A DNA stretch of 64,000 bases from Terriglobia bacterium (GTDB lineage: Bacteria; Acidobacteriota; Terriglobia; Bryobacterales; Bryobacteraceae), in NCBI GenBank assembly GCA_020073445.1, contig JAIQFE010000016.1, positions 1 through 64,000 on the forward strand, given 5' to 3'. Positions within the stretch are counted from its first letter, which is position 1, and each line of letters begins with the position of its first letter. The notes beneath the pieces were generated by a model that saw only the letters and a program-made list of their open reading frames with translations, ran no database searches and had not been told where the DNA came from. A program made the translations under genes and the position numbers. Of this stretch, positions 7,716 to 29,037 are shown in pieces.

Positions 7716-10025
7716 CTATTTCTCTGTGAGAGTGCGCAACGCCTGTTGCGCTGCTGCGCGTGCGTCCGGATCGGGTCCCTGCGCGGCGGCCGTCAAATGC
7801 TGAAAAGCGCCGGCACGGTCGCCCTGGCGCGCCAACACGATCCCCAGTTCCACGTGCGCGCGCCAATTCCCGGGCTGGAGCCGAACGGCTTCCAGTAATT
7901 CTCGCCTTGCGCCGGGAAGATCTCCCTTCTCGCCCAGAAGCGCCCCCCAGATTTCATGACCAGGCGCGGAGCCCGGATCGGTCTCCACCGCCAGCTTGGC
8001 TTGCTTCTCGGCATCGGAGGGCCGGTTCGAATCGGTAAGCACACGCGCATAGTCCACCCGGGCTGGTACATTGTCGGGCTGCAGGCGCAGACTCTCTTCC
8101 ATTTGAAAACGCGCTTCCGCGGTTTGGCCCTGCGCCGCCAGCGCGCGACCGAGATTTAATCGCCACTCGGATACTCCGGGTTGGATTCGGAGTGCGGCGC
8201 GGAATTCCTTCTCGGCAGCGGCCCGCTCACCCGTGCCCCATAAGATGAGGCCCAGATTGTTCCGCAGCTCGGGAACCTCGGGATCCAGATTAATCGCTTT
8301 ATCGAGTGCCGACTTTGCCTCCGCCGCTTTGTCTTGTTGCCACAACGCCCATCCCAGCCGGCCCCAGGCTCGCGGATCTCCGGGCGACAGCTCAGCGGCG
8401 CGCCGCAGTTTCGATTCCGCAAGCGCCCACTGTCCCGCTTGCATCAATGCATCTCCCCACTGGATCAGCCGTGGCGCGGAGTCAGGATCGAGCCGGGAAG
8501 CCTCCTCGAAAGATCGGATCGCCGAGGCGGCGTCGCCGACGGCCAGGTAACCTTCCGCCAGCTCCGCATAATATCCCGGCTGCTTTGGATGATGCTTGGC
8601 GATTTGCGATGCCAACAGCGGCAAACCGGCCTTCAGGTTACTCTGTTCGCGAACCTGCGCGACTGCGAGCGTCAGCTCGTCGTCTGTGGTCGAAGCGAGT
8701 TTGGCAGGGTAGTAAGGGACTACCTCTCCTTGATAAGAAGATGCAGCGGTTTCGGCGCGTTCGGGCTTTTCAGCCAGCAGATCCCCCGCGGGCGGGCGGC
8801 GCGCAATTAGATGATCCGTCATCACGACGTGAACAGCGTCGTCCGTTCGCCTGCGCGGCATGTGGCAGCTCACACAGTCGGCGCCTCCCTTATGCACTGA
8901 CACCTTGGTGAGCGAGGTGCCCAACTGATGGCACCCGGCACAAACCTGGTTGTAGTGGGAGACGGCTTCGTTTCCACGGGGAATGTCGTGAGGATTGTGA
9001 CAGCTGGTGCATCGAAGCTTTCCCGCGCTCTTCAGATAGCACTGCGATTCCCGAAATCGGTAGCCCGCTTGCGCGATTTCAAAGCCGGTGTTCTTGCCCG
9101 GTGCACGATCGAAGTTCACCTTGAAGTCCGCCAGCGGCTGTCCTGGGATATATGAGAACGGAGCGCGATCTAAACGGACCACCGCGTGAGGCAGTTTCTG
9201 ATTCGATGTTTCCAGATGGCATTGCAGGCAAACCTCGATCTCGCGATCCGCATTCAGGCGCGCCGGATTCACAATTGCGGCTCGCACAACTTGCTCCGAA
9301 TCCCCTCGTGAGGCTTTGTCGACATGGCTCTGTCCGGGCCCGTGGCACCGCTGGCAGTCGACTCCTTCCGGCAGCGGCAGCAGATACGTTGCTTGGGCCG
9401 CGTCCCGATGCGCACCCTCCGGAACCTTTGGATATCCGTTGTGGCAAAACATGCATTCGTAATAGATCGGGCGCACTGAGCCCGCGTAGTCCGGACGATC
9501 GTAACCGGGATTCATCCCCCAGAAGCCGCCCTTCTCCGAGTACCATCCGAGGGGCAGTTCCTGGAGCGTGTTCCGCTCCGTCAGGTGCAACAGCGTTCGC
9601 GAGTGGTTGCCGGAACCCAGCACGTAATCCACGCGCTTCTCGTCGACATTGGTTTCCTTGCCGTCGAAGCCCGTCTGCCAGCGGCGCTGAAACCAGGCGC
9701 CGTTCTGGAAGACCATACTGAAGAAGCTCTTCGAAGCCGCATGATAGAAGGGCTTCGCCGGGGCGGCCGCGCCCAGGTCTTTCTCTGACTGGACCTTGCG
9801 GAAGGATCGTCCCATCCCGGTCTTTTGAAATGTAACGGCGATGTCGGAGTGGCAGTCCGCGCACACCGCCGGATCCGCGTAACCGCCGGTGGCCTGCAGG
9901 GAACCCGGGCCAGTTCCGCTGGTTCGGCTGGCCGGCTGCCGCAGGAGCCACCACGCGCCACCGCCTGCCAGCGCGACCGCAAACGCCGCTACCGTTAGGA
10001 TGATTCGCGGATATTTTGAATGCAT
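7716..10025 (-). CDS. Seven-haem cytochrome c with C-terminal TPR repeats
   Basis: A membrane-anchored periplasmic protein of 769 residues. One N-terminal hydrophobic segment (about residues 9-28, IILTVAAFAVALAGG) is followed by seven CxxCH haem-binding motifs: CADCH, CMFCH, CQRCH, CLQCH, CTSCH, CAGCH and CVSCH, all within the first roughly 400 residues. The remainder (about 450-769) is a run of TPR units such as LRRAAELSPGDPRAWGRLGW. This domain order is typical of the cytochrome c554-like/TPR proteins of Acidobacteria and Planctomycetes (established knowledge). The likely role is periplasmic electron transfer with the TPRs docking a partner; no catalytic activity can be assigned. It is encoded just upstream of the antiporter and divergent from TonB receptor 2, with about 270 bp between. 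Confidence 0.88.
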   Translation of the reverse strand: MHSKYPRIILTVAAFAVALAGGGAWWLLRQPASRTSGTGPGSLQATGGYADPAVCADCHSDIAVTFQKTGMGRSFRKVQSEKDLGAAAPAKPFYHAASKSFFSMVFQNGAWFQRRWQTGFDGKETNVDEKRVDYVLGSGNHSRTLLHLTERNTLQELPLGWYSEKGGFWGMNPGYDRPDYAGSVRPIYYECMFCHNGYPKVPEGAHRDAAQATYLLPLPEGVDCQRCHGPGQSHVDKASRGDSEQVVRAAIVNPARLNADREIEVCLQCHLETSNQKLPHAVVRLDRAPFSYIPGQPLADFKVNFDRAPGKNTGFEIAQAGYRFRESQCYLKSAGKLRCTSCHNPHDIPRGNEAVSHYNQVCAGCHQLGTSLTKVSVHKGGADCVSCHMPRRRTDDAVHVVMTDHLIARRPPAGDLLAEKPERAETAASSYQGEVVPYYPAKLASTTDDELTLAVAQVREQSNLKAGLPLLASQIAKHHPKQPGYYAELAEGYLAVGDAASAIRSFEEASRLDPDSAPRLIQWGDALMQAGQWALAESKLRRAAELSPGDPRAWGRLGWALWQQDKAAEAKSALDKAINLDPEVPELRNNLGLILWGTGERAAAEKEFRAALRIQPGVSEWRLNLGRALAAQGQTAEARFQMEESLRLQPDNVPARVDYARVLTDSNRPSDAEKQAKLAVETDPGSAPGHEIWGALLGEKGDLPGARRELLEAVRLQPGNWRAHVELGIVLARQGDRAGAFQHLTAAAQGPDPDARAAAQQALRTLTEK

Positions 10026-10288: not shown

Positions 10289-10297
10289 GGGGTGTTT

Positions 10298-13200
10298 ATG
10301 ATCAAACGCGAAGTTGCAGTAAATGAGGTGTCGCGCCCAAAACTCGCGATGCGCTGCCTGGCAGTGCTTGCGTGCCTTCTTTTGGTCGGGCTCGCCGCAT
10401 ACGGCCAGAGCGCCAACGGCTCCATCACCGGAACCGTTACAGACGCCTCGGGCGCAGTGGCTCCCAATGTATCCATCGAAGTCAAGAACGCCGATACGGG
10501 CGCCGTTTTTCAGAGCGGCACTTCCAGCACTGGAAACTATGTCGTCCCCGTTCCCGCCGGTAACTATGCAGTTACGGTAACCGCCACGGGCTTCAAGAAA
10601 TATGTTCGTTCGAACCTGGTGGTTCAGGCCGCCACAGCCTTGCGTCTCGACGTGAGCCTGGAGGTCGGCGCGGTCACCGACACGATTACGGTAAGCGAAC
10701 AGACGCCGCTGCTCAAGACCGAAAGCGGCGAAATGGCCCACCAGCTGGTTACCAAGGACGTTACCAATCTGCCGGTTTATACCGTGGGCGGCAATATCCG
10801 TAATCCGCTGCAGCAGATTGTCCTTCTCCCCGGCACGACGTTCCAGAACGAAAACGCGATCGTCGTGAACGGCATGCCCGCCAATAGCCAGAGCATTCGG
10901 ATCGAAGGACAGGACGCGACCGGCAACATCTGGAAGATCGCCCAACAGAACAGCCAGGCCGGCGTCGAAGCCATCCAGGAAGTGGCGGTTCAGACCAGTA
11001 ACTTCGCCGCGGAGTACGGACAGGCTGCCGGAGGGTACTTCAACTACACAATGAGGTCGGGCACCAACGCATTCCACGGCAGCGCCTACGACTACATCGT
11101 CAACGAAGCGTTGAATGCCGGCCTGCCCTTTACCGACCGTTGCGTGCCGGACGGGCAATACTGCACCAGCACCGACACCAGGCAGCATATTCGCAACCGC
11201 GTGCGCCGCAGCGACTATGGGTTCACGTTCGGCGGGCCGGTTCGGATCCCCAAAGTGTATAACGGAACGGACAAGACGTTCTTCTTCGCGAACTTTGAGC
11301 AATACCGCGACTCCAGATTTACTTCCACCGGACTGTTCACGGTTCCAACCACGGCATACCGCAGTGGCGACTTCAGCACGGCGCTCTGCAGCTCGTACAT
11401 TGGAGGCAACCTGGATGGTACAGGCGGAACGTGTAATCCCTTCAATCCGATCACCATCGCCGGCGCACCGGCTACGGACCCCGCGGGCAATAGACTGGTG
11501 CAGGGGCAGATCTACGATCCCTACAGCACCCGCCTGGAAGGTGGCCAGCAGGTTCGCACACCCTATGTGAACAACCGGATTCCGCTGACTTCCATGGATC
11601 CGGTCGCCGTCGCGGTTCAAAAGTTGATTCCCGCGGCGAATTCGCCTGGCATTATCAACAACTACACCGTTCCGAGCTACACCAGCTTCACGCACACCAC
11701 GAACTTTTCGCTCAAGTTCGATCAGAACCTTAGCTCGACGATCAAGCTCTCCGGCTACTATGGCCACAACGAGAACTACTCTCCGTTCGCCAACGGCCTT
11801 CCGAGAATTCTCGGGAATGCGGACACCGACAACACGAATCACACCACCCGCGTGAACTATGACCAGACGCTGCGGCCCACGCTGCTTTTGCACGTCGGAA
11901 TCGGCTATTTCCAGACCAGGCAGCCGCACCTCGCGCCGGAGTTCGATCAGAACACGATCGGCCTCAAGGGCTACTATGCCAACCAGATTTTCCCCGATAT
12001 CGGCGGCATTTTCAGTGGTCAGCAGGGCGGCTATAACGGCGGGCTGGGCGCCACCTTCAGCGCGGTGGCTTACGAAGAGAAGCCCACTGCTAACACTAGC
12101 TTGACTTGGGTTCACGGCAATCATACTCTCAAAGCGGGCGGCGAATTTACAGCCGAAGGTTACCCGGTCCCGAGCAGCTGGCGCGCGAACGGAAACTTCA
12201 CCTTCGCCGCCGACCAGACCGCAGACCCCTGGCAGGCGACAGTAGCCACCAACGTAAATAACCCGACCGGTTTTGCCTACGCTAGCTTCCTCACCGGCCT
12301 GCCCAACGTATTGGCGCTCAACCAACCCACCAATGCCAAGCTCGGCTATCACTCCTTAGGCTTTTATCTGCAGGACAGCTGGAGGGTATCCCGGAAACTG
12401 ACCCTGGATTACGGCCTGCGATACGACTACCAGACGTACATGACGGAACAGTACGGGCGCATGCAGGACGCGTCGTTCACTACGCAGAACAAAGCCCTCG
12501 GCCGGCTCGGAGCGGTGCTCTATGGAGCCACCTGCAACTGCCAGTTCTCGCACAACTACCCGTACGCCTTCGGCCCGCGCCTCGGTGGAGCATACCAGCT
12601 GGACACCAAGACCGTAATTCGCGGTGGCGGCGGCATTCAGTACGACGTCGCCGAAGCGCCGAACGGCGTTTTGTATAGCGCGGCTGACTACTATCAGATC
12701 AACCCGAACGGCTATGGGATCAGCCCGCTTCAGAACACAGCGAATCCGGCACAGAACGGCCTGCAGGGCGGAAACGCCTATGCGGTGGGTAACCCGTTCG
12801 GCAATACGCCTGTGGTTTGGCCGAATCTGAACCAGGACAAGTATCCCATCTATAACAATGGTATTGGCACTCCGGTGAACCCCGCCATTTTCATCGACCC
12901 GCACAATCGTCCCGGGCGAGTCTTGACCTGGAGCATTGGCATTCAGCGCGAAGTGATGAGGAACCTTGTAGTCGAAGTGAGCTACGTGGGCAACCGCGGA
13001 GCGTATTTCCCGGCCCCGAACTTGAATCAGATCGCGTCGAATGCGTTGACGCCGGACCTCCTGAAGTCGGCGTTCGGCATCGACATGAACAACGCCACCG
13101 ACCGGGGGCTACTCACCCAACAGATCAGCAGCACGGCGGTTCAGGCCCGCTTCCCGCAATTCCAAACTGTTGCGGTGAACGGCACACTCACCGTCCCGGC

Positions 13201-14137
13201 CGTTTACAAGGGCTTCCCCGCGAGCCAGCCCTTGATTCAGGCTCTCCGCGCGGTGCCGCAGTGGCTCGGGGTGAGCCCCTGGATTGGGCCGCCGATGGGC
13301 AAGACCTGGTACGACTCGATGCAAGTGAAGGTCGTCAAGCGGTATTCGCACGGCTTCCAGGCCGACGGCAACTTCACTTGGGCCAAAGGCGACGTCATCG
13401 GATCCGCATCCGACAGCACGTTCTTCCTCGGCCAGCAAGCCGTGACCACGGACATCTACAATTTCAACAACAACAAGCAGATAAACCAGTACGTTCGACC
13501 TCTGGCAATGGTGATCACGTTCTCGTACACCACGCCGAAGTTCGAATCGTCCAACCGCGCAATGAAAGCGGTGTCCCACGTGACCCGCGACTGGCAGCTG
13601 GGCGCGGTCCTCCGCTACCAGAGCGGCTTGCCGATCGGAGAACCTACCTCGCTGAACCTTCTCACGAATCAGCTGGCAAGAGGCCCGACGGCGTTCGGCA
13701 ACAGTGGTCAAAACTTCTGGAATCGCACCGGACAGCCGCTGTTCCTGCAGGACCCCAACTGCAAGTGCTTCAACCCGCAGACCGACCGGATTCTAAACCC
13801 GGCGGCCTGGAGCGATGCACCCGCGGGCACCTGGACCACCAGCGCGCCGTTCTACAACAACTATCGCTGGCAGCGGCAGCCGGCCGAATCGATGAGCTTC
13901 GCTCGCAATTTCCGGCTCCATGAAGGGTACAACTTGCAGGTTAGGATGGAATTCCAGAACATCTTCAACCGTACCTTCCTGTCGGTGCCGTCCGTGGCTA
14001 ACCCCAATCTCGCGATCGGGACCACCCCCTATGCCGGCGCCAACATCAATAGTTCCGGCTTTGGAACTATTTCCACTCTGAACGGAGCAGGCGCTCAGCC
14101 GCGCAGCGGTCAGGCCGTTGTCCGCTTTAGCTTCTAA
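10298..14137 (+). CDS. TonB-dependent receptor, Oar type, copy 2
   Basis: An outer-membrane receptor of 1279 residues. I start it at ATG 10298 because AAGGGG ends about 6 nt upstream; a GTG at 10292 is an alternative. The signal peptide has an extended n-region and core CLAVLACLLLVGLAAYGQ, with cleavage near residue 37. It is followed by a carboxypeptidase-regulatory-like domain (SITGTVTDASGAVAPN, about 40-125), a plug (LLKTESGEMAHQLV and VVNGMPANSQSIRIEGQ, about 140-245) and a long barrel ending in VVRFSF. It is a close paralogue of the receptor at 554-4369, with the same order of conserved blocks, and clearly less similar to the one at 37309-41040. A strong hairpin terminator lies 22 nt after the stop. 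The ligand is unknown. Confidence 0.93.
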   Translation: MIKREVAVNEVSRPKLAMRCLAVLACLLLVGLAAYGQSANGSITGTVTDASGAVAPNVSIEVKNADTGAVFQSGTSSTGNYVVPVPAGNYAVTVTATGFKKYVRSNLVVQAATALRLDVSLEVGAVTDTITVSEQTPLLKTESGEMAHQLVTKDVTNLPVYTVGGNIRNPLQQIVLLPGTTFQNENAIVVNGMPANSQSIRIEGQDATGNIWKIAQQNSQAGVEAIQEVAVQTSNFAAEYGQAAGGYFNYTMRSGTNAFHGSAYDYIVNEALNAGLPFTDRCVPDGQYCTSTDTRQHIRNRVRRSDYGFTFGGPVRIPKVYNGTDKTFFFANFEQYRDSRFTSTGLFTVPTTAYRSGDFSTALCSSYIGGNLDGTGGTCNPFNPITIAGAPATDPAGNRLVQGQIYDPYSTRLEGGQQVRTPYVNNRIPLTSMDPVAVAVQKLIPAANSPGIINNYTVPSYTSFTHTTNFSLKFDQNLSSTIKLSGYYGHNENYSPFANGLPRILGNADTDNTNHTTRVNYDQTLRPTLLLHVGIGYFQTRQPHLAPEFDQNTIGLKGYYANQIFPDIGGIFSGQQGGYNGGLGATFSAVAYEEKPTANTSLTWVHGNHTLKAGGEFTAEGYPVPSSWRANGNFTFAADQTADPWQATVATNVNNPTGFAYASFLTGLPNVLALNQPTNAKLGYHSLGFYLQDSWRVSRKLTLDYGLRYDYQTYMTEQYGRMQDASFTTQNKALGRLGAVLYGATCNCQFSHNYPYAFGPRLGGAYQLDTKTVIRGGGGIQYDVAEAPNGVLYSAADYYQINPNGYGISPLQNTANPAQNGLQGGNAYAVGNPFGNTPVVWPNLNQDKYPIYNNGIGTPVNPAIFIDPHNRPGRVLTWSIGIQREVMRNLVVEVSYVGNRGAYFPAPNLNQIASNALTPDLLKSAFGIDMNNATDRGLLTQQISSTAVQARFPQFQTVAVNGTLTVPAVYKGFPASQPLIQALRAVPQWLGVSPWIGPPMGKTWYDSMQVKVVKRYSHGFQADGNFTWAKGDVIGSASDSTFFLGQQAVTTDIYNFNNNKQINQYVRPLAMVITFSYTTPKFESSNRAMKAVSHVTRDWQLGAVLRYQSGLPIGEPTSLNLLTNQLARGPTAFGNSGQNFWNRTGQPLFLQDPNCKCFNPQTDRILNPAAWSDAPAGTWTTSAPFYNNYRWQRQPAESMSFARNFRLHEGYNLQVRMEFQNIFNRTFLSVPSVANPNLAIGTTPYAGANINSSGFGTISTLNGAGAQPRSGQAVVRFSF

Positions 14138-14430: not shown

Positions 14431-16323
14431 TTATCTGGCTGAGGTTGGTTCCGGCCCTAGCGCCTGGCATGCGTTCTGATCGCCCCGGTCGCATCCCTGG
14501 CGGAAACGCGCCTGGGCAAGGGGTTCATTCTTCGGCGTTTCGATTCCCTGCCGGTGCATGATGCCAACGTTGAAGCACCCCGGCCCATAGCCCGCATCGC
14601 AGGCCTTTTCGAGAATCTGCCTGGCCTTGACGATGTCCTTGGGAACGCCTTCCCCGAAAAGATAACTTTCCCCGAGCTGGCCGCAGCCGCGCGTAAATCC
14701 GGCTGTACAGCTTTGCTGGAAGAGGGTTACCGAATACTCGAGGTTCCGGCTGACTCCCTGGCCCCCATAATAGAGCGACCCGAGCATGAAACAGCTTTTT
14801 CCGTCTCCACTGCGGCAGGGTTCGAGCAAGACGCGGTCCCCGTCGGTTGCCACCATATTCAGGAGATTGCTGCACGCGCTCTCGAGGCCGAGATCGCAGG
14901 CTTGCTTGAAACTCCGCCCCGCACCGACCGGATCGCGGGGAAGTCCCTTGCCGCTGCTCAGCAGCATTCCCAGCGTGAAGCAGCCGTTAGCGGCGTTGTG
15001 CTGGCACTGTACGTCGAGAGTTTGGGCCAGGACCCGGCAGCCTTTCTCGCTCCCCTCCGAGCAAGCTTTTTCCCAGACGGCGGGATCGCTGCCCGGGTGC
15101 TTCCCGCCGATAAATCCTGTGGCAAACATGAAGCCGAAAAACGCCGCCCAGATCGCCATGAATCCAAAATTCGCCTGTCGCGGAGTCCAGGCCGAAAGGG
15201 CCCACAACGGCCGGAATATCCCCCCGGTAACCCACTTCTGCCGCGCTAGCCAGGCGCTGAGAGCAGTGCTGGCGCGGTCCAAGGCCCGGACCGTCAAATT
15301 GAGCGCCGGTACGCACAGCAGCTTGTCGTAAAATGCCAGGCTGCCCAGCCATCCAACCAAAACGAAGACGCAGGCGCCATATGCCGCTCCGAAGATCGTC
15401 TTTCCGAAATTCTTGCGGGGAGAGGTGGCCGGATCGGTCACGAGGAGATGCAGCCCCAGGAAAACCGCCGGATGGATGTTGAAGTCGATGAATTGGTACA
15501 TGCCGGTGGAGCTGGTGTAGGCGACGTTGAGCACATAAAGCGAGGCCGCCGCGGACAACGTGACCAGAGTCACCGAAAACAGGCCCTGCACGATGAGCCC
15601 GAGCAGGAAAATTTCCATGTAGATATGCGGCGGATAGTTGAGAGTTGTCGAAATCTCGGAGCCCCAGGTGATCGGCGTAGTGTGAGTCGCGATCAAGACA
15701 ATAGACGTCAGGAAAAGCGCAAAAGCGGAGGGATTAAAGATGTGAGTGTTCTGGCCGTCGCGTTTCCATCGCAGGAATTCCTTGCCGAATACGATAATCG
15801 CGACCATGACGAACTGCAGGTAGAACCAGTCGTCGCGAAACCACAGGAACAGGTTCATGCTGAAGATAATAGGGATCTGACCAAAGCCGAGAATCCATTT
15901 GTCCCGCCGGGACCAGCAGACCAGCATGTCCAGGACGTATAGAAAGACCACCTGGGCGATGATCAGCGGGATTTCGTGGTAGACCTCACGCCAGTACCAG
16001 CCCCAGTAGGCGTAGACGGAGGAGTGCATGATCATCTGAACCCAGTGCACTCTCCGGGGAACGAATTCGTAGGTCAGGGTTCGCCCGGTCCGGACCAGGC
16101 TCCACCAGAGAACGCAGAGCCCGGCCAACAGCAAGCCCGCGGCTCCCAAGAACGAATCCGTCAGATGGGGATTTGTGTTTACGCGTGGAAGCAGCGTAAA
16201 ACCAGCGAAAACAAGCGTAAGGAGAGCAGGAAACCAAAGCGGCGAGAGCCCCCGCTCTCCTCCGCGCGCGGCCGCATCTTTTGGACTAATCCCAGATCCC
16301 CTGCCCCGTGCAGGTGATTTCAT
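14431..16323 (-). CDS. RnfD/NqrB-like membrane protein fused to Cys-rich Sel1 repeats
   Basis: 630 residues in two parts. Residues about 25-395 carry roughly nine to ten hydrophobic segments and two patterns I associate with RnfD/NqrB (the quinone/flavin membrane subunits of Rnf and Na+-NQR): HIFNPSAFALFLTS near 195-208 and TDPATSPRKNFGKTIFGA near 305-322. I do not see the SGAT-type threonine motif for covalent FMN, so flavin attachment is doubtful. Residues about 410-625 are Sel1-like repeats with paired cysteines (KACSEGSEKGC, QACDLGLESAC, QSCTAGFTRGC, KACDAGYGPGC), the pattern of the disulphide-bonded Helicobacter Hcp proteins, which argues for a periplasmic C-terminus. No other Rnf/Nqr subunit is nearby. 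It is divergent from a cytochrome/PQQ dehydrogenase. The redox role is inferred. Confidence 0.72.
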   Translation of the reverse strand: MKSPARGRGSGISPKDAAARGGERGLSPLWFPALLTLVFAGFTLLPRVNTNPHLTDSFLGAAGLLLAGLCVLWWSLVRTGRTLTYEFVPRRVHWVQMIMHSSVYAYWGWYWREVYHEIPLIIAQVVFLYVLDMLVCWSRRDKWILGFGQIPIIFSMNLFLWFRDDWFYLQFVMVAIIVFGKEFLRWKRDGQNTHIFNPSAFALFLTSIVLIATHTTPITWGSEISTTLNYPPHIYMEIFLLGLIVQGLFSVTLVTLSAAASLYVLNVAYTSSTGMYQFIDFNIHPAVFLGLHLLVTDPATSPRKNFGKTIFGAAYGACVFVLVGWLGSLAFYDKLLCVPALNLTVRALDRASTALSAWLARQKWVTGGIFRPLWALSAWTPRQANFGFMAIWAAFFGFMFATGFIGGKHPGSDPAVWEKACSEGSEKGCRVLAQTLDVQCQHNAANGCFTLGMLLSSGKGLPRDPVGAGRSFKQACDLGLESACSNLLNMVATDGDRVLLEPCRSGDGKSCFMLGSLYYGGQGVSRNLEYSVTLFQQSCTAGFTRGCGQLGESYLFGEGVPKDIVKARQILEKACDAGYGPGCFNVGIMHRQGIETPKNEPLAQARFRQGCDRGDQNACQALGPEPTSAR

Positions 16324-16443: not shown

Positions 16444-18321
16444 ATGCGGTATGTACTGAAGTCCTCGCGCAAAACCTTTGCGCTATCGATTCTGACGATT
16501 ACCGGGCTCTTGCAAGCACAGGACGGAGCGGCGCTGTACAAGGAACGCTGCGCGTCATGTCACGATTCGCCCGAGGGACGCATTCCATCCATTGGCGCGA
16601 TCAAACAGATGACGGGTGAAGCCGTCTACGCGGCTCTGACGAATGGTGCGATGAAATCACAAACGCGCGGTTTGTCCACGCAGGAATTGATATCCCTTCT
16701 CACCTTTATTGCCCCTGCAGGTAACGCGGGCGCCAAGCCTGCCTTTGAAAAGAACTGCACCCGGAACGCTGCCTCCTCTTCCGGCCTGGATCCATCCGTG
16801 AAGCCCGGCGCGAGTGCGTGGGGCGGCCTCTGGGGGGGATGGTCCCCGAGCGTCACCAACTCGCGCTATCAGGACACGAAAGCAGCGGGGATTACCGCAG
16901 CCGACGTGCCCAGGCTCAAGCTCAAGTGGGCGTTCAATCTGGGGGCGGTGACCATGGGGCGCGGCCAGCCAGCGGTGGCCGGCAACCGCGTATTTACCGG
17001 CACGCTCGCGGGCGATATGTACGCCATCGACACCGCCAGCGGGTGTATTCAGTGGGCCTTCCGGGCGACGGCGGGTATCCGGTCGGGTGTGGCCATCGGG
17101 GACGCCAATGGTGTTCCCGCGATCTTTTTCGGAGATCGCAGCGCGGTGATGTATGCCTTGAATGCGGCTACGGGCGAGTTGCTATGGAAGACGCGGCCCG
17201 TGGAACATTTGCTCGCGGAATCCACGGCTACGCCGCAGTTCTATAAAGGAGTGATCTACCAGGGATTCTCTTCCATCGAAGAATCGCTCGTGGTGGATCC
17301 CAACGCCGTGTGTTGTTCCTTCCGCGGCAGTGTTGTGGCGCTCGACGCCGCCACAGGCAGCACGATCTGGCAGAGTTTCACGATCAGGGAACCAGCGAAG
17401 CCGACTGGGAGGGGGAAGCAGCAGGGTCCCTCCGGCGCCGCGATCTGGTCCACACCCACCATCGATGAACAGAAGGGTGCGCTCTATGTCGCTACGGGGG
17501 ACAATTATTCGAACCCGGTCACCGAGACCAGCGATGCCGTGCTCGCCTTCGATCTGAAGACGGGGAAGCTGCTGTGGTCGCGGCAGCTCACTCAGGATGA
17601 CGCCTATAACAGTGCCTGCTCCAGCCGGGAGCCCGCAAACTGTCCCGACAAGAACGGTCCCGACTTCGATTTCGGACAGCCTCCCATTCTGGCGAACCTT
17701 GGCGAAGGGAAACGCGCGCTGGTCATCGCGCAGAAGTCCGGCATGGTGCATGCGCTCGATCCCGATGCGGAGGGCAAGATTCTGTGGCAAACCCGCGTTG
17801 GGGCCGGCGGCCTGCTGGGCGGCAGCCAATGGGGTTCGGCCGCGGACAACCGGCGCATCTATGTCGCGATATCGGATGTCGTCCTGCATAGCGTCATGGA
17901 CGCCAAGGCTCCGGGCGGAAGACGCATCGTGCCCGATCCGAAGAAAGGCGGCGGGCTGCATGCGATCGACCTCAAGTCGGGAACAATCGTCTGGAGCGCC
18001 AGGCCGGCGCTGTGCCCCGCCACTCAGGCCATCTGCTCGCCCGCGCAATCCGCGGCCGTTACGGCCATCGCGGGTGCGGTGTTTTCAGGCAGCCTCGACG
18101 GCCACATGCGCGCCTATTCCACCACGGACGGCAGAGTGATCTGGGACTTCAATACGGCCCGCGAATCTCCGACGGTCAACGGCAAACCGGGGCGCGGCGG
18201 ATCCATCGATGCGACGGGAGCAGCCGTGGCAGGCGGCCTCGTGTTCGTCCATTCAGGCTACAACCAGTTCGGCGGAATGCCTGGCAATGTGCTGCTGGCA
18301 TTCTCGGTGGACGGGAAGTAG
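16444..18321 (+). CDS. Cytochrome-c/PQQ quinoprotein dehydrogenase (polyvinyl-alcohol-dehydrogenase-like)
   Basis: A periplasmic quinoprotein of 625 residues. The signal peptide ends near residue 25 (LLQAQ). A class I cytochrome c domain with CASCH at 36-40 covers about 28-95. An eight-bladed propeller with repeated W-motif units follows from about 130 to the end, for example GDMYAIDTASGCIQWAF, ALNAATGELLWKT and AFDLKTGKLLWSRQL. Adjacent cysteines occur in AVCCSFRG (about 289), reminiscent of the vicinal disulphide of quinoprotein dehydrogenases but in a different position. Cytochrome first, then propeller, is the arrangement of polyvinyl-alcohol dehydrogenase and related alcohol oxidases (known). 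It would oxidise an alcohol and pass electrons to its own haem. Its promoter must lie in the 120-bp gap shared with the divergent RnfD-like gene. Confidence 0.87.
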   Translation: MRYVLKSSRKTFALSILTITGLLQAQDGAALYKERCASCHDSPEGRIPSIGAIKQMTGEAVYAALTNGAMKSQTRGLSTQELISLLTFIAPAGNAGAKPAFEKNCTRNAASSSGLDPSVKPGASAWGGLWGGWSPSVTNSRYQDTKAAGITAADVPRLKLKWAFNLGAVTMGRGQPAVAGNRVFTGTLAGDMYAIDTASGCIQWAFRATAGIRSGVAIGDANGVPAIFFGDRSAVMYALNAATGELLWKTRPVEHLLAESTATPQFYKGVIYQGFSSIEESLVVDPNAVCCSFRGSVVALDAATGSTIWQSFTIREPAKPTGRGKQQGPSGAAIWSTPTIDEQKGALYVATGDNYSNPVTETSDAVLAFDLKTGKLLWSRQLTQDDAYNSACSSREPANCPDKNGPDFDFGQPPILANLGEGKRALVIAQKSGMVHALDPDAEGKILWQTRVGAGGLLGGSQWGSAADNRRIYVAISDVVLHSVMDAKAPGGRRIVPDPKKGGGLHAIDLKSGTIVWSARPALCPATQAICSPAQSAAVTAIAGAVFSGSLDGHMRAYSTTDGRVIWDFNTARESPTVNGKPGRGGSIDATGAAVAGGLVFVHSGYNQFGGMPGNVLLAFSVDGK

Positions 18322-18375: not shown

Positions 18376-18768
18376 GTGCGGCTCTTGTTCCAGTTCCCGG
18401 CCGCGCTGCCGGAATTCTTCATAAAGTTGCTTACTGAAGAAGGCGACACCGTGATCGATCCCTTCGCCGGGTCAAACACCACGGGAATCGTTGCTGAGGG
18501 CCTTAAACGGCGCTGGATCGCGATGGAGAAAGTTCCGGAGTACCTGGAGGCCAGCGAGGTTCGCGTGGCGTTGTTGATGCTCGGCTTCACTTACGACTCG
18601 CGGTTTCAGGTGGAAGCCTGGGCGAAGAGGTTTCGTCAGGACTTCGGAACCAAACCAGGCGTTACATTTTTCGAGATTCCCATGATCGGCGGCATGGCGA
18701 GGATGGGAAAGTGGTTCATCGATAGCGGCATGAGACGGGTACGCCTAAGGCCGATCACGAGAATGTGA
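18376..18768 (+). pseudogene. DNA methyltransferase, C-terminal fragment
   Basis: A 130-residue frame containing [18 protein letters not shown], then [18 protein letters not shown] and a [17 protein letters not shown] helix. DPFAGSxTT is the AdoMet-binding motif I of beta-class N4/N6 DNA methyltransferases, in which motif I lies in the C-terminal half. The catalytic (D/S)PPY motif that should precede it by 100-200 residues is absent, because the PQQ dehydrogenase gene ends only 54 bp upstream. The C-terminal 45 residues do not look like the family and may be read-through after a frameshift. Probably an inactive remnant of a restriction-modification gene. Whether it is still translated is unknown. 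Confidence 0.6.
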
Positions 18769-18880
18769 TCACCGTATACGGCGGCACGGATTGCGTGGAA
18801 GCAGCGCGTGGGTTCCATGATCCCAGGGCTGCGTACCGAAGGGACCGTGCGCCCGACTCGGGCCATCCTCGTTTTCTTGC

Positions 18881-19294
18881 TTAGGAAGCTTTCCGCATCA
18901 ACGCGGTCTCAGCGACATTCGATGCCGTTTGTTCCCAGATGTCCCGCACGCGCGATGTGCGCACGACGCCTCTTTCAGGATGAAAAAATTCCATCCTCAT
19001 GTCGCGCCCGATGAAGCGCACCTTGAGCATGGGCGTCCCCCACGTCGATCCGTGAAAACTCACCAGAACGGGCGTGGGGCAAATTTCAGGGTGGCCTGAA
19101 ATCAGCACTTCGCCGTCTCCGCGGTTCTCGATCCGATAAAGCGTGTTGGAGGTCTGGACGTCCAGTACCGCGCCCACGGGAAGTTCGTCGAGAGACACGC
19201 CGCCCTCGATCTCCGACTGGCAGATGGCGCTGTTGATCGCATCATCAAAGTTCGGATGCGGCCGGAAAGGCTCGGTCAAGGGCAGCATATTCAT
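18881..19294 (-). CDS. Conserved protein of unknown function, 137 aa
   Basis: A soluble protein without signal peptide or membrane segment. It has an acidic N-terminal half with SLDELPVGAVLDVQT and a central block ISGHPEICPTPVLVSFHGSTWG with few gaps expected among homologues, then a basic C-terminus. I recall similar small proteins in Acidobacteria with the LPVGAVL and SGHPE..P.PV..SFHGSTWG blocks, but no function is known. The first ATG at 19294 has only a weak GAG upstream, and the methionine two codons later is an equal choice. Codon usage and GC match the neighbours. It lies between a broken methylase and an MFS gene and shares no obvious operon. Confidence 0.65.
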   Translation of the reverse strand: MNMLPLTEPFRPHPNFDDAINSAICQSEIEGGVSLDELPVGAVLDVQTSNTLYRIENRGDGEVLISGHPEICPTPVLVSFHGSTWGTPMLKVRFIGRDMRMEFFHPERGVVRTSRVRDIWEQTASNVAETALMRKAS

Positions 19295-27996: not shown

Positions 27997-29037
27997 ATGT
28001 TCGCCAAACACGCGTTCCGTGGCATTTCCCCCGTTGTGAACTTCATATTCGCCGCAAGCTTGGTGTCCTCGGTTCAGCCAGTTGTGGCCGAGGTTTACCC
28101 CCTCATCGTACAAGGCAAAGTGACGATGCCGGACGGATCGCCTCCGCCATTCAGTGTCGGCATTGAGCGGATCTGCAGCGATAGCCAGGGGTCGGCTCCG
28201 GGGCCCATCACCGACAAGAAAGGCGAGTACACATGGCGGATGGATGTGGACCCTTTGCGGTCCCGCGCATGCTTCATCCGCGCGACGCACTCCGGGTATA
28301 CCTCTTCCACCGTGGATATCTCCGCGCTGGACGGCTCTACTAAAACGACTGTCACCGTAAACACGCTCGTGATCACCAATGGCCGCGTTGTCGATCCCTA
28401 CGCCATCATAAGCAGCGATTCGGGTTTGCCATCCCGCGCGAGCGGCCCCTGGAAAGCGGCGATGAAGGCGCTGGACGCCAGCAATGACGCGGAGGCTGTC
28501 ACGCAGATGCAGGCGACCGTCGCCGCCGCTCCCAAATTCGCGATCGGCTGGCACGCGTTGGGCGTGGTGCAGGACCGGCGGCAGCAGAAGGTCGCCGAAG
28601 CGCGCGCCGCTTATGAGCACGCCATCGAAGCCGATCCGAAGTTATTGGCTCCGTACATTGCGCTGGCGCGCCTTTGTCTTAAGGCCAAGGACTGGCAGTG
28701 CGCAGCGAAGAACGCCGATGCCTTGATCAAGATCGACACGAAGAAGACGGTTACGGAGATTTATCTCCATCAAGCAGTTGCGCGTTACGGGCTTAAGGAT
28801 CTCGACGGCGCGGCGGCCAGTGCGCAACAGGCCATCCAGTTCAAGATTCCCCGGGCGGAATACGTTCTTGGCCGGATTCTCGAGGCGAAAGGCGACGCTG
28901 CGGGCGCGCGCGAGCACATGTCGAAGTACTTGGGAATGGACAAGTCCACACCGGACGCCGATTCGATTCAGGTGCACCTTCAGAACATCGGGAAACCGGA
29001 GGCGGCAGCAGTGGACCCGGATCTGGAGGTTCTCTAG
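27997..29037 (+). CDS. Exported TPR protein with carboxypeptidase-regulatory-like N-domain
   Basis: 346 residues. The signal region is about 10-32 (VVNFIFAASLVSSVQPVVA). A beta-sandwich domain (about 38-125; GKVTMPDGSPPPF and DKKGEYTWRMDVDP) resembles the Oar-type N-terminal domain. At least three TPR units follow (about 160-330), for example ARAAYEHAIEADPKLLAPYIALARL. AGGAGG just before the start (27986-27991) is a strong ribosome site. It probably follows the carboxylesterase in one transcript. Its stop overlaps the stop of the convergent ABC permease (CTAG shared). Likely a periplasmic scaffold. Confidence 0.75.
   Translation: MFAKHAFRGISPVVNFIFAASLVSSVQPVVAEVYPLIVQGKVTMPDGSPPPFSVGIERICSDSQGSAPGPITDKKGEYTWRMDVDPLRSRACFIRATHSGYTSSTVDISALDGSTKTTVTVNTLVITNGRVVDPYAIISSDSGLPSRASGPWKAAMKALDASNDAEAVTQMQATVAAAPKFAIGWHALGVVQDRRQQKVAEARAAYEHAIEADPKLLAPYIALARLCLKAKDWQCAAKNADALIKIDTKKTVTEIYLHQAVARYGLKDLDGAAASAQQAIQFKIPRAEYVLGRILEAKGDAAGAREHMSKYLGMDKSTPDADSIQVHLQNIGKPEAAAVDPDLEVL

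Follow-up and report, generated by a model that had tools for sequence, protein, structure and literature searches.

A distant NqrB/RnfD-fold protein with an Hcp-like Sel1 tail, encoded as a stand-alone gene in a Terriglobia bacterium

The NqrB/RnfD fold is studied as part of ion-pumping complexes. A protein with this fold that is encoded alone is found in a 64,000-nucleotide stretch of a Terriglobia bacterium (GCA_020073445.1, contig JAIQFE010000016.1, positions 1 to 64,000; hereafter the window), where an NqrB/RnfD-type membrane domain is followed by cysteine-rich Sel1 repeats. We class this window protein as distantly related within the NqrB/RnfD fold rather than as an Rnf/Nqr subunit, and give about even chances to its being a stand-alone membrane electron-transfer protein that keeps the riboflavin pocket and docks a periplasmic heme protein with its solenoid. 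An initial annotation, which knew NqrB/RnfD only from six-subunit complexes, was mistaken on that point: two-subunit Nqr/Rnf-like systems have already been published (excerpts of PMC11334425; all papers cited here are used as excerpts), and this genome has its own cluster of FMN_bind, ApbE and RnfD-like genes on another contig (C6). The gene and its parts are as follows.

14431–16323, minus strand: whole gene, 630 amino acids, ATG at 16323
16087–16248, minus strand: two extra N-terminal membrane helices ahead of the NqrB/RnfD core, residues 26–79
15226–16080, minus strand: NqrB/RnfD-fold core, residues 82–366
15859–15861, minus strand: S155, matched by hand to NqrB T162 (riboflavin)
15733–15744, minus strand: H194–N197, at the positions of NqrB N200 and N203 (riboflavin)
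15640–15666, minus strand: residues 220–228 (WGSEISTTL), aligned with the loop DGxSGATxL for covalent flavin mononucleotide (FMN); ApbE motif absent
15433–15435, minus strand: D297 of TDP, at the position of NqrB D346 / RnfD D249 (riboflavin)
15121–15183, minus strand: extra last membrane helix taking the chain outward, residues 381–401
14461–15087, minus strand: HcpC-like array of Sel1-like repeats holding seven CX7C pairs, residues 413–621

Fold, topology and flavin sites

Fold comparison supported the assignment, the window protein being clearly of the NqrB/RnfD type with a fit well above the Rh row, although the profile PF03116 scored only 17 bits on the lone protein, under its curated cut-off of 27.7. 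The same profile was matched at E<0.1 by 71 of the 72 members of alignment A2 (the window protein and 71 homologues, 70 of the 72 rows carrying the search pattern HIFNPS[ASG][FL]xL), and Sel1 and PF03116 were the only domains matched in the window protein at E<=0.01. The confident profile match to PF03116 spans 67 columns, the forced match 298, and global hhalign 9 columns only.

The FNPSAF and TDPATSP patterns pointed out in the initial annotation were both found, and its estimate of about ten membrane segments agrees with hydropathy (ten distinct segments, from 12 peaks with two pairs overlapping). The predicted structure suggests 13 helices if two half-helices are counted, and the last of the 13 stops at residue 401; in this model the NqrB/RnfD core is preceded by two helices and followed by one. 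With loops placed on alternate sides and the N-terminus inside, lysines and arginines number 23 in the inside loops and 6 in the outside ones, and the tail lies outside. This placement fits the composition of the tail, whose 14 cysteines form seven pairs with a spacing of exactly 8, from 421/429 to 611/619, much as the initial annotation had described; the Sel1 profile scored 74.1 bits (cut-off 30.7), and with both a Sel1 profile match and paired cysteines spaced by 8 the protein is of the Hcp type. On this topology the previously suggested Hcp-like arm in the periplasm is likely, and the solenoid would contain disulphides. We regard fold, topology and distribution as firm by the standard of computational results.

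In NqrB, riboflavin is reported to be held by T162, N200, N203 and D346 (PMC9325719; PMC10643135), while A. woodii RnfD is reported to use N123 and D249, and its variants N123A and D249A failed (PMC11889175). N203 and D346 are identical in the window protein, while T162 is replaced by serine and N200 by histidine. S155, H194, N197 and D297 were each present in 72/72 rows of A2, and in 23, 23, 24 and 23, respectively, of the 24 sequences of alignment A1, which was gathered within the phylum using the membrane domain of the window protein and no pattern. The loop that takes covalent FMN in NqrB (DGxSGATxL) was aligned here with WGxEIA[ST]TL, and [ST]GA[ST] was absent at the aligned covalent-FMN residues from all 72 A2 and all 24 A1 sequences. 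From these alignments, it looks as if the inner, non-covalent riboflavin site has been kept and the outer, covalent FMN site lost, with riboflavin presumably bound at the conserved pocket.

Genomic context and distribution

The gene stands alone, as the initial annotation had it. PF02508 (RnfA/E, NqrD/E) gave 0 matches in the whole genome, which is 95.8% complete, so that the claimed lack of other Rnf/Nqr genes holds for this family (RnfB, RnfC, NqrA and NqrF were not searched). Single matches to PF04205 (FMN_bind) and to ApbE both fell on C6, within the cluster FMN_bind – ApbE – RnfD-like (L013:8105-10582; RnfD-like subunit L013:8105-8950). Besides the window gene, PF03116 was matched once over its cut-off on C6 and once weakly on C65. 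The C65 paralogue (L012:9195-11881, 43% identity) has a start overlapping the end of an upstream gene (one CxxCH, no Pfam match; a similar gene was noted by eye at L013:4997-6277). Five relatives within the phylum have NqrB genes (L155, L157, L158, L159, L160); the excerpt of a 2014 survey reports no nqr operon found in Acidobacteria (PMC4014512).

In the phylum sample a homologue was present in 28 of the 396 genomes, or 15 of the 210 genera, and in the window's genus in 9 of 23 genomes (paralogues included). They are not always encoded together with a full Rnf/Nqr operon: PF02508 was absent from 14 of the 28 carrier genomes, that of the window included, with two matches in each of the other 14. 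ApbE was matched in 27 of the 28. The pattern was matched 415 times among GTDB genomes, and 387 of these matches encode a relative. Titles among the best 80 of the 387 include Acidobacteria, Gammaproteobacteria, Gemmatimonadetes, Planctomycetota, Verrucomicrobia and Myxococcota, names that are those of metagenome-assembled genomes with unchecked binning; the closest relatives among the 80 are titled Bryobacteraceae and Terriglobia. No relative was found in the plasmids and viral contigs searched, at the limits used. Since the same design recurs in genomes of several bacterial groups, the NqrB/RnfD fold is probably able to work outside its usual complex. No publication on a Sel1 fusion with RnfD or NqrB was found in a search limited to one open library, and a link to enediyne UnbU, a stand-alone RnfD-like protein, was dropped as nothing relevant appeared in the papers searched.

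The tails vary in length. CX7C pairs in the 71 A2 homologues number six or seven in 17 (long-tail), five in 8 (five-pair), three or four in 39 (short-tail) and fewer in 7 (few-pair). Of the 28 anchors in the phylum set, 26 show at least 6 cysteines in the region of the tail; L066 is interrupted by masked bases, and L072 lacks such cysteines. The L072 homologue (L072:7674-9617) has a cysteine-free tail that appears by eye to be plain TPR. An FGE-fold gene lies directly downstream in 30 of 39 short-tail loci (e.g. L132:11419-12447), within 30 bases in 29 of the 30, versus 0 of 32 loci of the other classes. All 30 of these FGE-sulfatase-fold proteins have CxxC in their last 110 residues and none has the GFRC of true FGE, so they are probably not sulfatase activators.

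Neighbouring genes and candidate partners

Three neighbours of the gene are as follows.

7716–10025, minus strand: heptaheme-TPR protein, seven CxxCH motifs and TPR
10292–14137, plus strand: outer-membrane beta-barrel with a CarboxypepD_reg domain
16444–18321, plus strand: fusion of a cytochrome c (CBB3 type) with a quinoprotein beta-propeller; residues 290–291 are a vicinal Cys-Cys

The last of these, called a cytochrome-c/PQQ dehydrogenase in the initial annotation, is divergent from the gene described here and begins 120 bp away. When 31 genes chosen from the window's first 45 kb were compared with the loci of three close relatives (L075–L077; 73–77% identity in the window protein), relatives of the heptaheme-TPR protein were found at L076 and L077 (72–73%), of the cytochrome-quinoprotein at L075 and L076 (79–80%), and of the barrel in all three (60–72%); two other barrels of the window were also matched there. 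Relatives (40–55%) of a TPR gene at 27997–29037 directly adjoin the homologue gene in L076 and L077. Gene order and orientation differ, and the genes bordering the island in the window (e.g. 18376–19294) had no match at these loci. The best quinoprotein of the L077 genome (63%) and the heptaheme relative of the L075 genome (69%) each lie on another contig than the locus itself, and in two same-genus genomes without a close orthologue the quinoprotein reached 45–50% at best, the heptaheme protein 44% or none. This suggests a kept gene island, as seen in very few genomes; in the wider family the neighbours differ from locus to locus. Beside the quinoprotein gene, an open reading frame at 18376–18768 matches only the last quarter of an N6/N4 DNA methylase profile (165–219 of 221).

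The quinoprotein suggested as a partner has been retained close to the gene in two of three close orthologues but fails as a family rule. Cluster-4 quinoproteins lay within three genes in 2/17 long-tail and 10/39 short-tail loci and in 0/8 five-pair and 0/7 few-pair loci, and a family-wide partnership was rejected. Five phylum homologues (L059, L060, L063, L069, L073) do have a divergent quinoprotein next door, of which three match that of the window at 22–23% and two do not at E 1e-5. With 115 PQQ_2 matches in the window genome (stretches, not genes), being next to the gene is by itself weak evidence. PqqE was not matched over its cut-off in the window genome, nor in any of 14 control genomes. 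The vicinal Cys-Cys is present in the window quinoprotein and both orthologues; against the NCBIfam family 'acido-empty-quinoprotein' the window quinoprotein scored 63 bits, far under the cut-off of 650. It is a possible electron donor.

Proposed role and relation to known systems

Taking together what was computed, namely the fold, the likely topology, the conserved pocket, the missing FMN motif, the absence of RnfA/E–NqrD/E and an island in a few relatives, our best inference is that the window protein moves electrons. The pocket for non-covalent riboflavin, on the cytoplasmic side within the membrane, would be retained and the covalent-FMN site of ApbE lost, while the added last helix would bring the chain to the outside. 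There, a rigid, disulphide-pinned Sel1 solenoid would replace NqrC/RnfG and dock a periplasmic heme protein, for which the likeliest candidates are two products of this island, the heptaheme-TPR protein and the cytochrome-quinoprotein. Electrons would then pass between this partner and the quinone pool via the bound flavin, in the direction expected from published NqrB chemistry, from flavin to quinone with a low-potential periplasmic heme as donor.

Several observations weigh against such a role. Without covalent FMN the path from the periplasm to the inner flavin is long, and a CxxCH gene lies within three genes of only 16 of 71 loci. The position of NqrB N200 is occupied by histidine, and in L070, the most distant homologue (34%) and the exception in A1, three of the four pocket residues are replaced (T, P, A). 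Of the A2 sequences, 7/72 have [ST]GA[ST] at some point of the membrane domain, one of them (L079) in the outer loop though displaced, and 59/72 have Ser/Thr as residue 226. S155 and H194 were placed by counting by hand around the aligned KE, NP and TDP motifs; because the confident profile match is so short, these two positions and the FMN loop depend on MAFFT and hand counting. Finally, the invariance of H194 and N197 in A2 is partly due to selection, both lying inside the search pattern; S155 and D297 fall outside the search patterns, and our estimate is therefore unchanged.

Three other explanations were considered. The protein might belong to a two-component Nqr/Rnf-like system spread across loci, in which the flexible covalent FMN of the C6 FMN_bind protein visits the empty outer pocket, as has been proposed for published Nqr/Rnf-like pairs. 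The membrane subunits of those pairs are described as likewise lacking the flavinylation site (PMC11334425), the genome's only FMN_bind and ApbE genes are both on C6, and ApbE is near-universal among carriers; yet an RnfD-like subunit is already encoded in the C6 cluster, the solenoid and the FMN_bind protein would contend for one face, and carrier G301 (97% complete) shows no ApbE, so that we consider this unlikely. To a similar degree we doubt that the protein is not redox-active at all, its fold, which resembles Rh/Amt-type channels, having been taken over to serve a periplasmic Sel1 scaffold as its membrane anchor or as a carrier of small molecules: the riboflavin positions are conserved, the better fit is to NqrB/RnfD, and the island holds redox neighbours. 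Less probable still is a different cofactor, with H93, H194 and H292 as ligands of a heme or metal at or close to the former flavin site. These histidines are indeed conserved (72/72, 72/72 and 71/72 in A2; 23, 23 and 22 of 24 in A1), but N197 and D297 are kept as well, and no heme protein appeared among the NqrB/RnfD-type rows shown in the structure comparisons.

These proteins may form a class of single-protein electron conduits in the membrane that is widespread and undescribed, with the NqrB/RnfD fold working outside any Rnf/Nqr complex, non-covalent flavin only, and periplasmic partners linked by a built-in cysteine-rich solenoid; we put this somewhat below an even chance. A large family with the inner flavin pocket and neither covalent flavin nor other subunits would be a minimal system for what the fold does alone, and could help to explain how bacteria rich in periplasmic hemes and quinoproteins link these to the quinone pool.

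The window protein has the fold in common with NqrB of Na+-NQR and RnfD of Rnf over ~285 residues, and shares with them the FNP and TDP motifs and the riboflavin pocket positions; it differs in that it belongs to no complex, lacks the covalent-FMN motif and has an outward C-terminal domain and three additional helices. Hcp proteins are soluble and secreted and have paired cysteines. Those of Helicobacter, HcpC and HcpB (1ouv, 1klx), share Sel1-like repeats with the window protein, in which, by contrast, the Sel1 domain is tethered to a membrane domain. As in the two-subunit Nqr/Rnf-like systems, described in excerpts of PMC8238504 and PMC11334425, an NqrB/RnfD-like domain occurs outside a six-subunit complex and its flavinylation site has been lost. 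Whereas those systems have a cytosolic NAD-binding domain (PF00175, their mark, which was not found in the window protein at E<=0.01) and an FMN_bind partner, the window protein has a Sel1 domain and no FMN_bind partner beside its gene.
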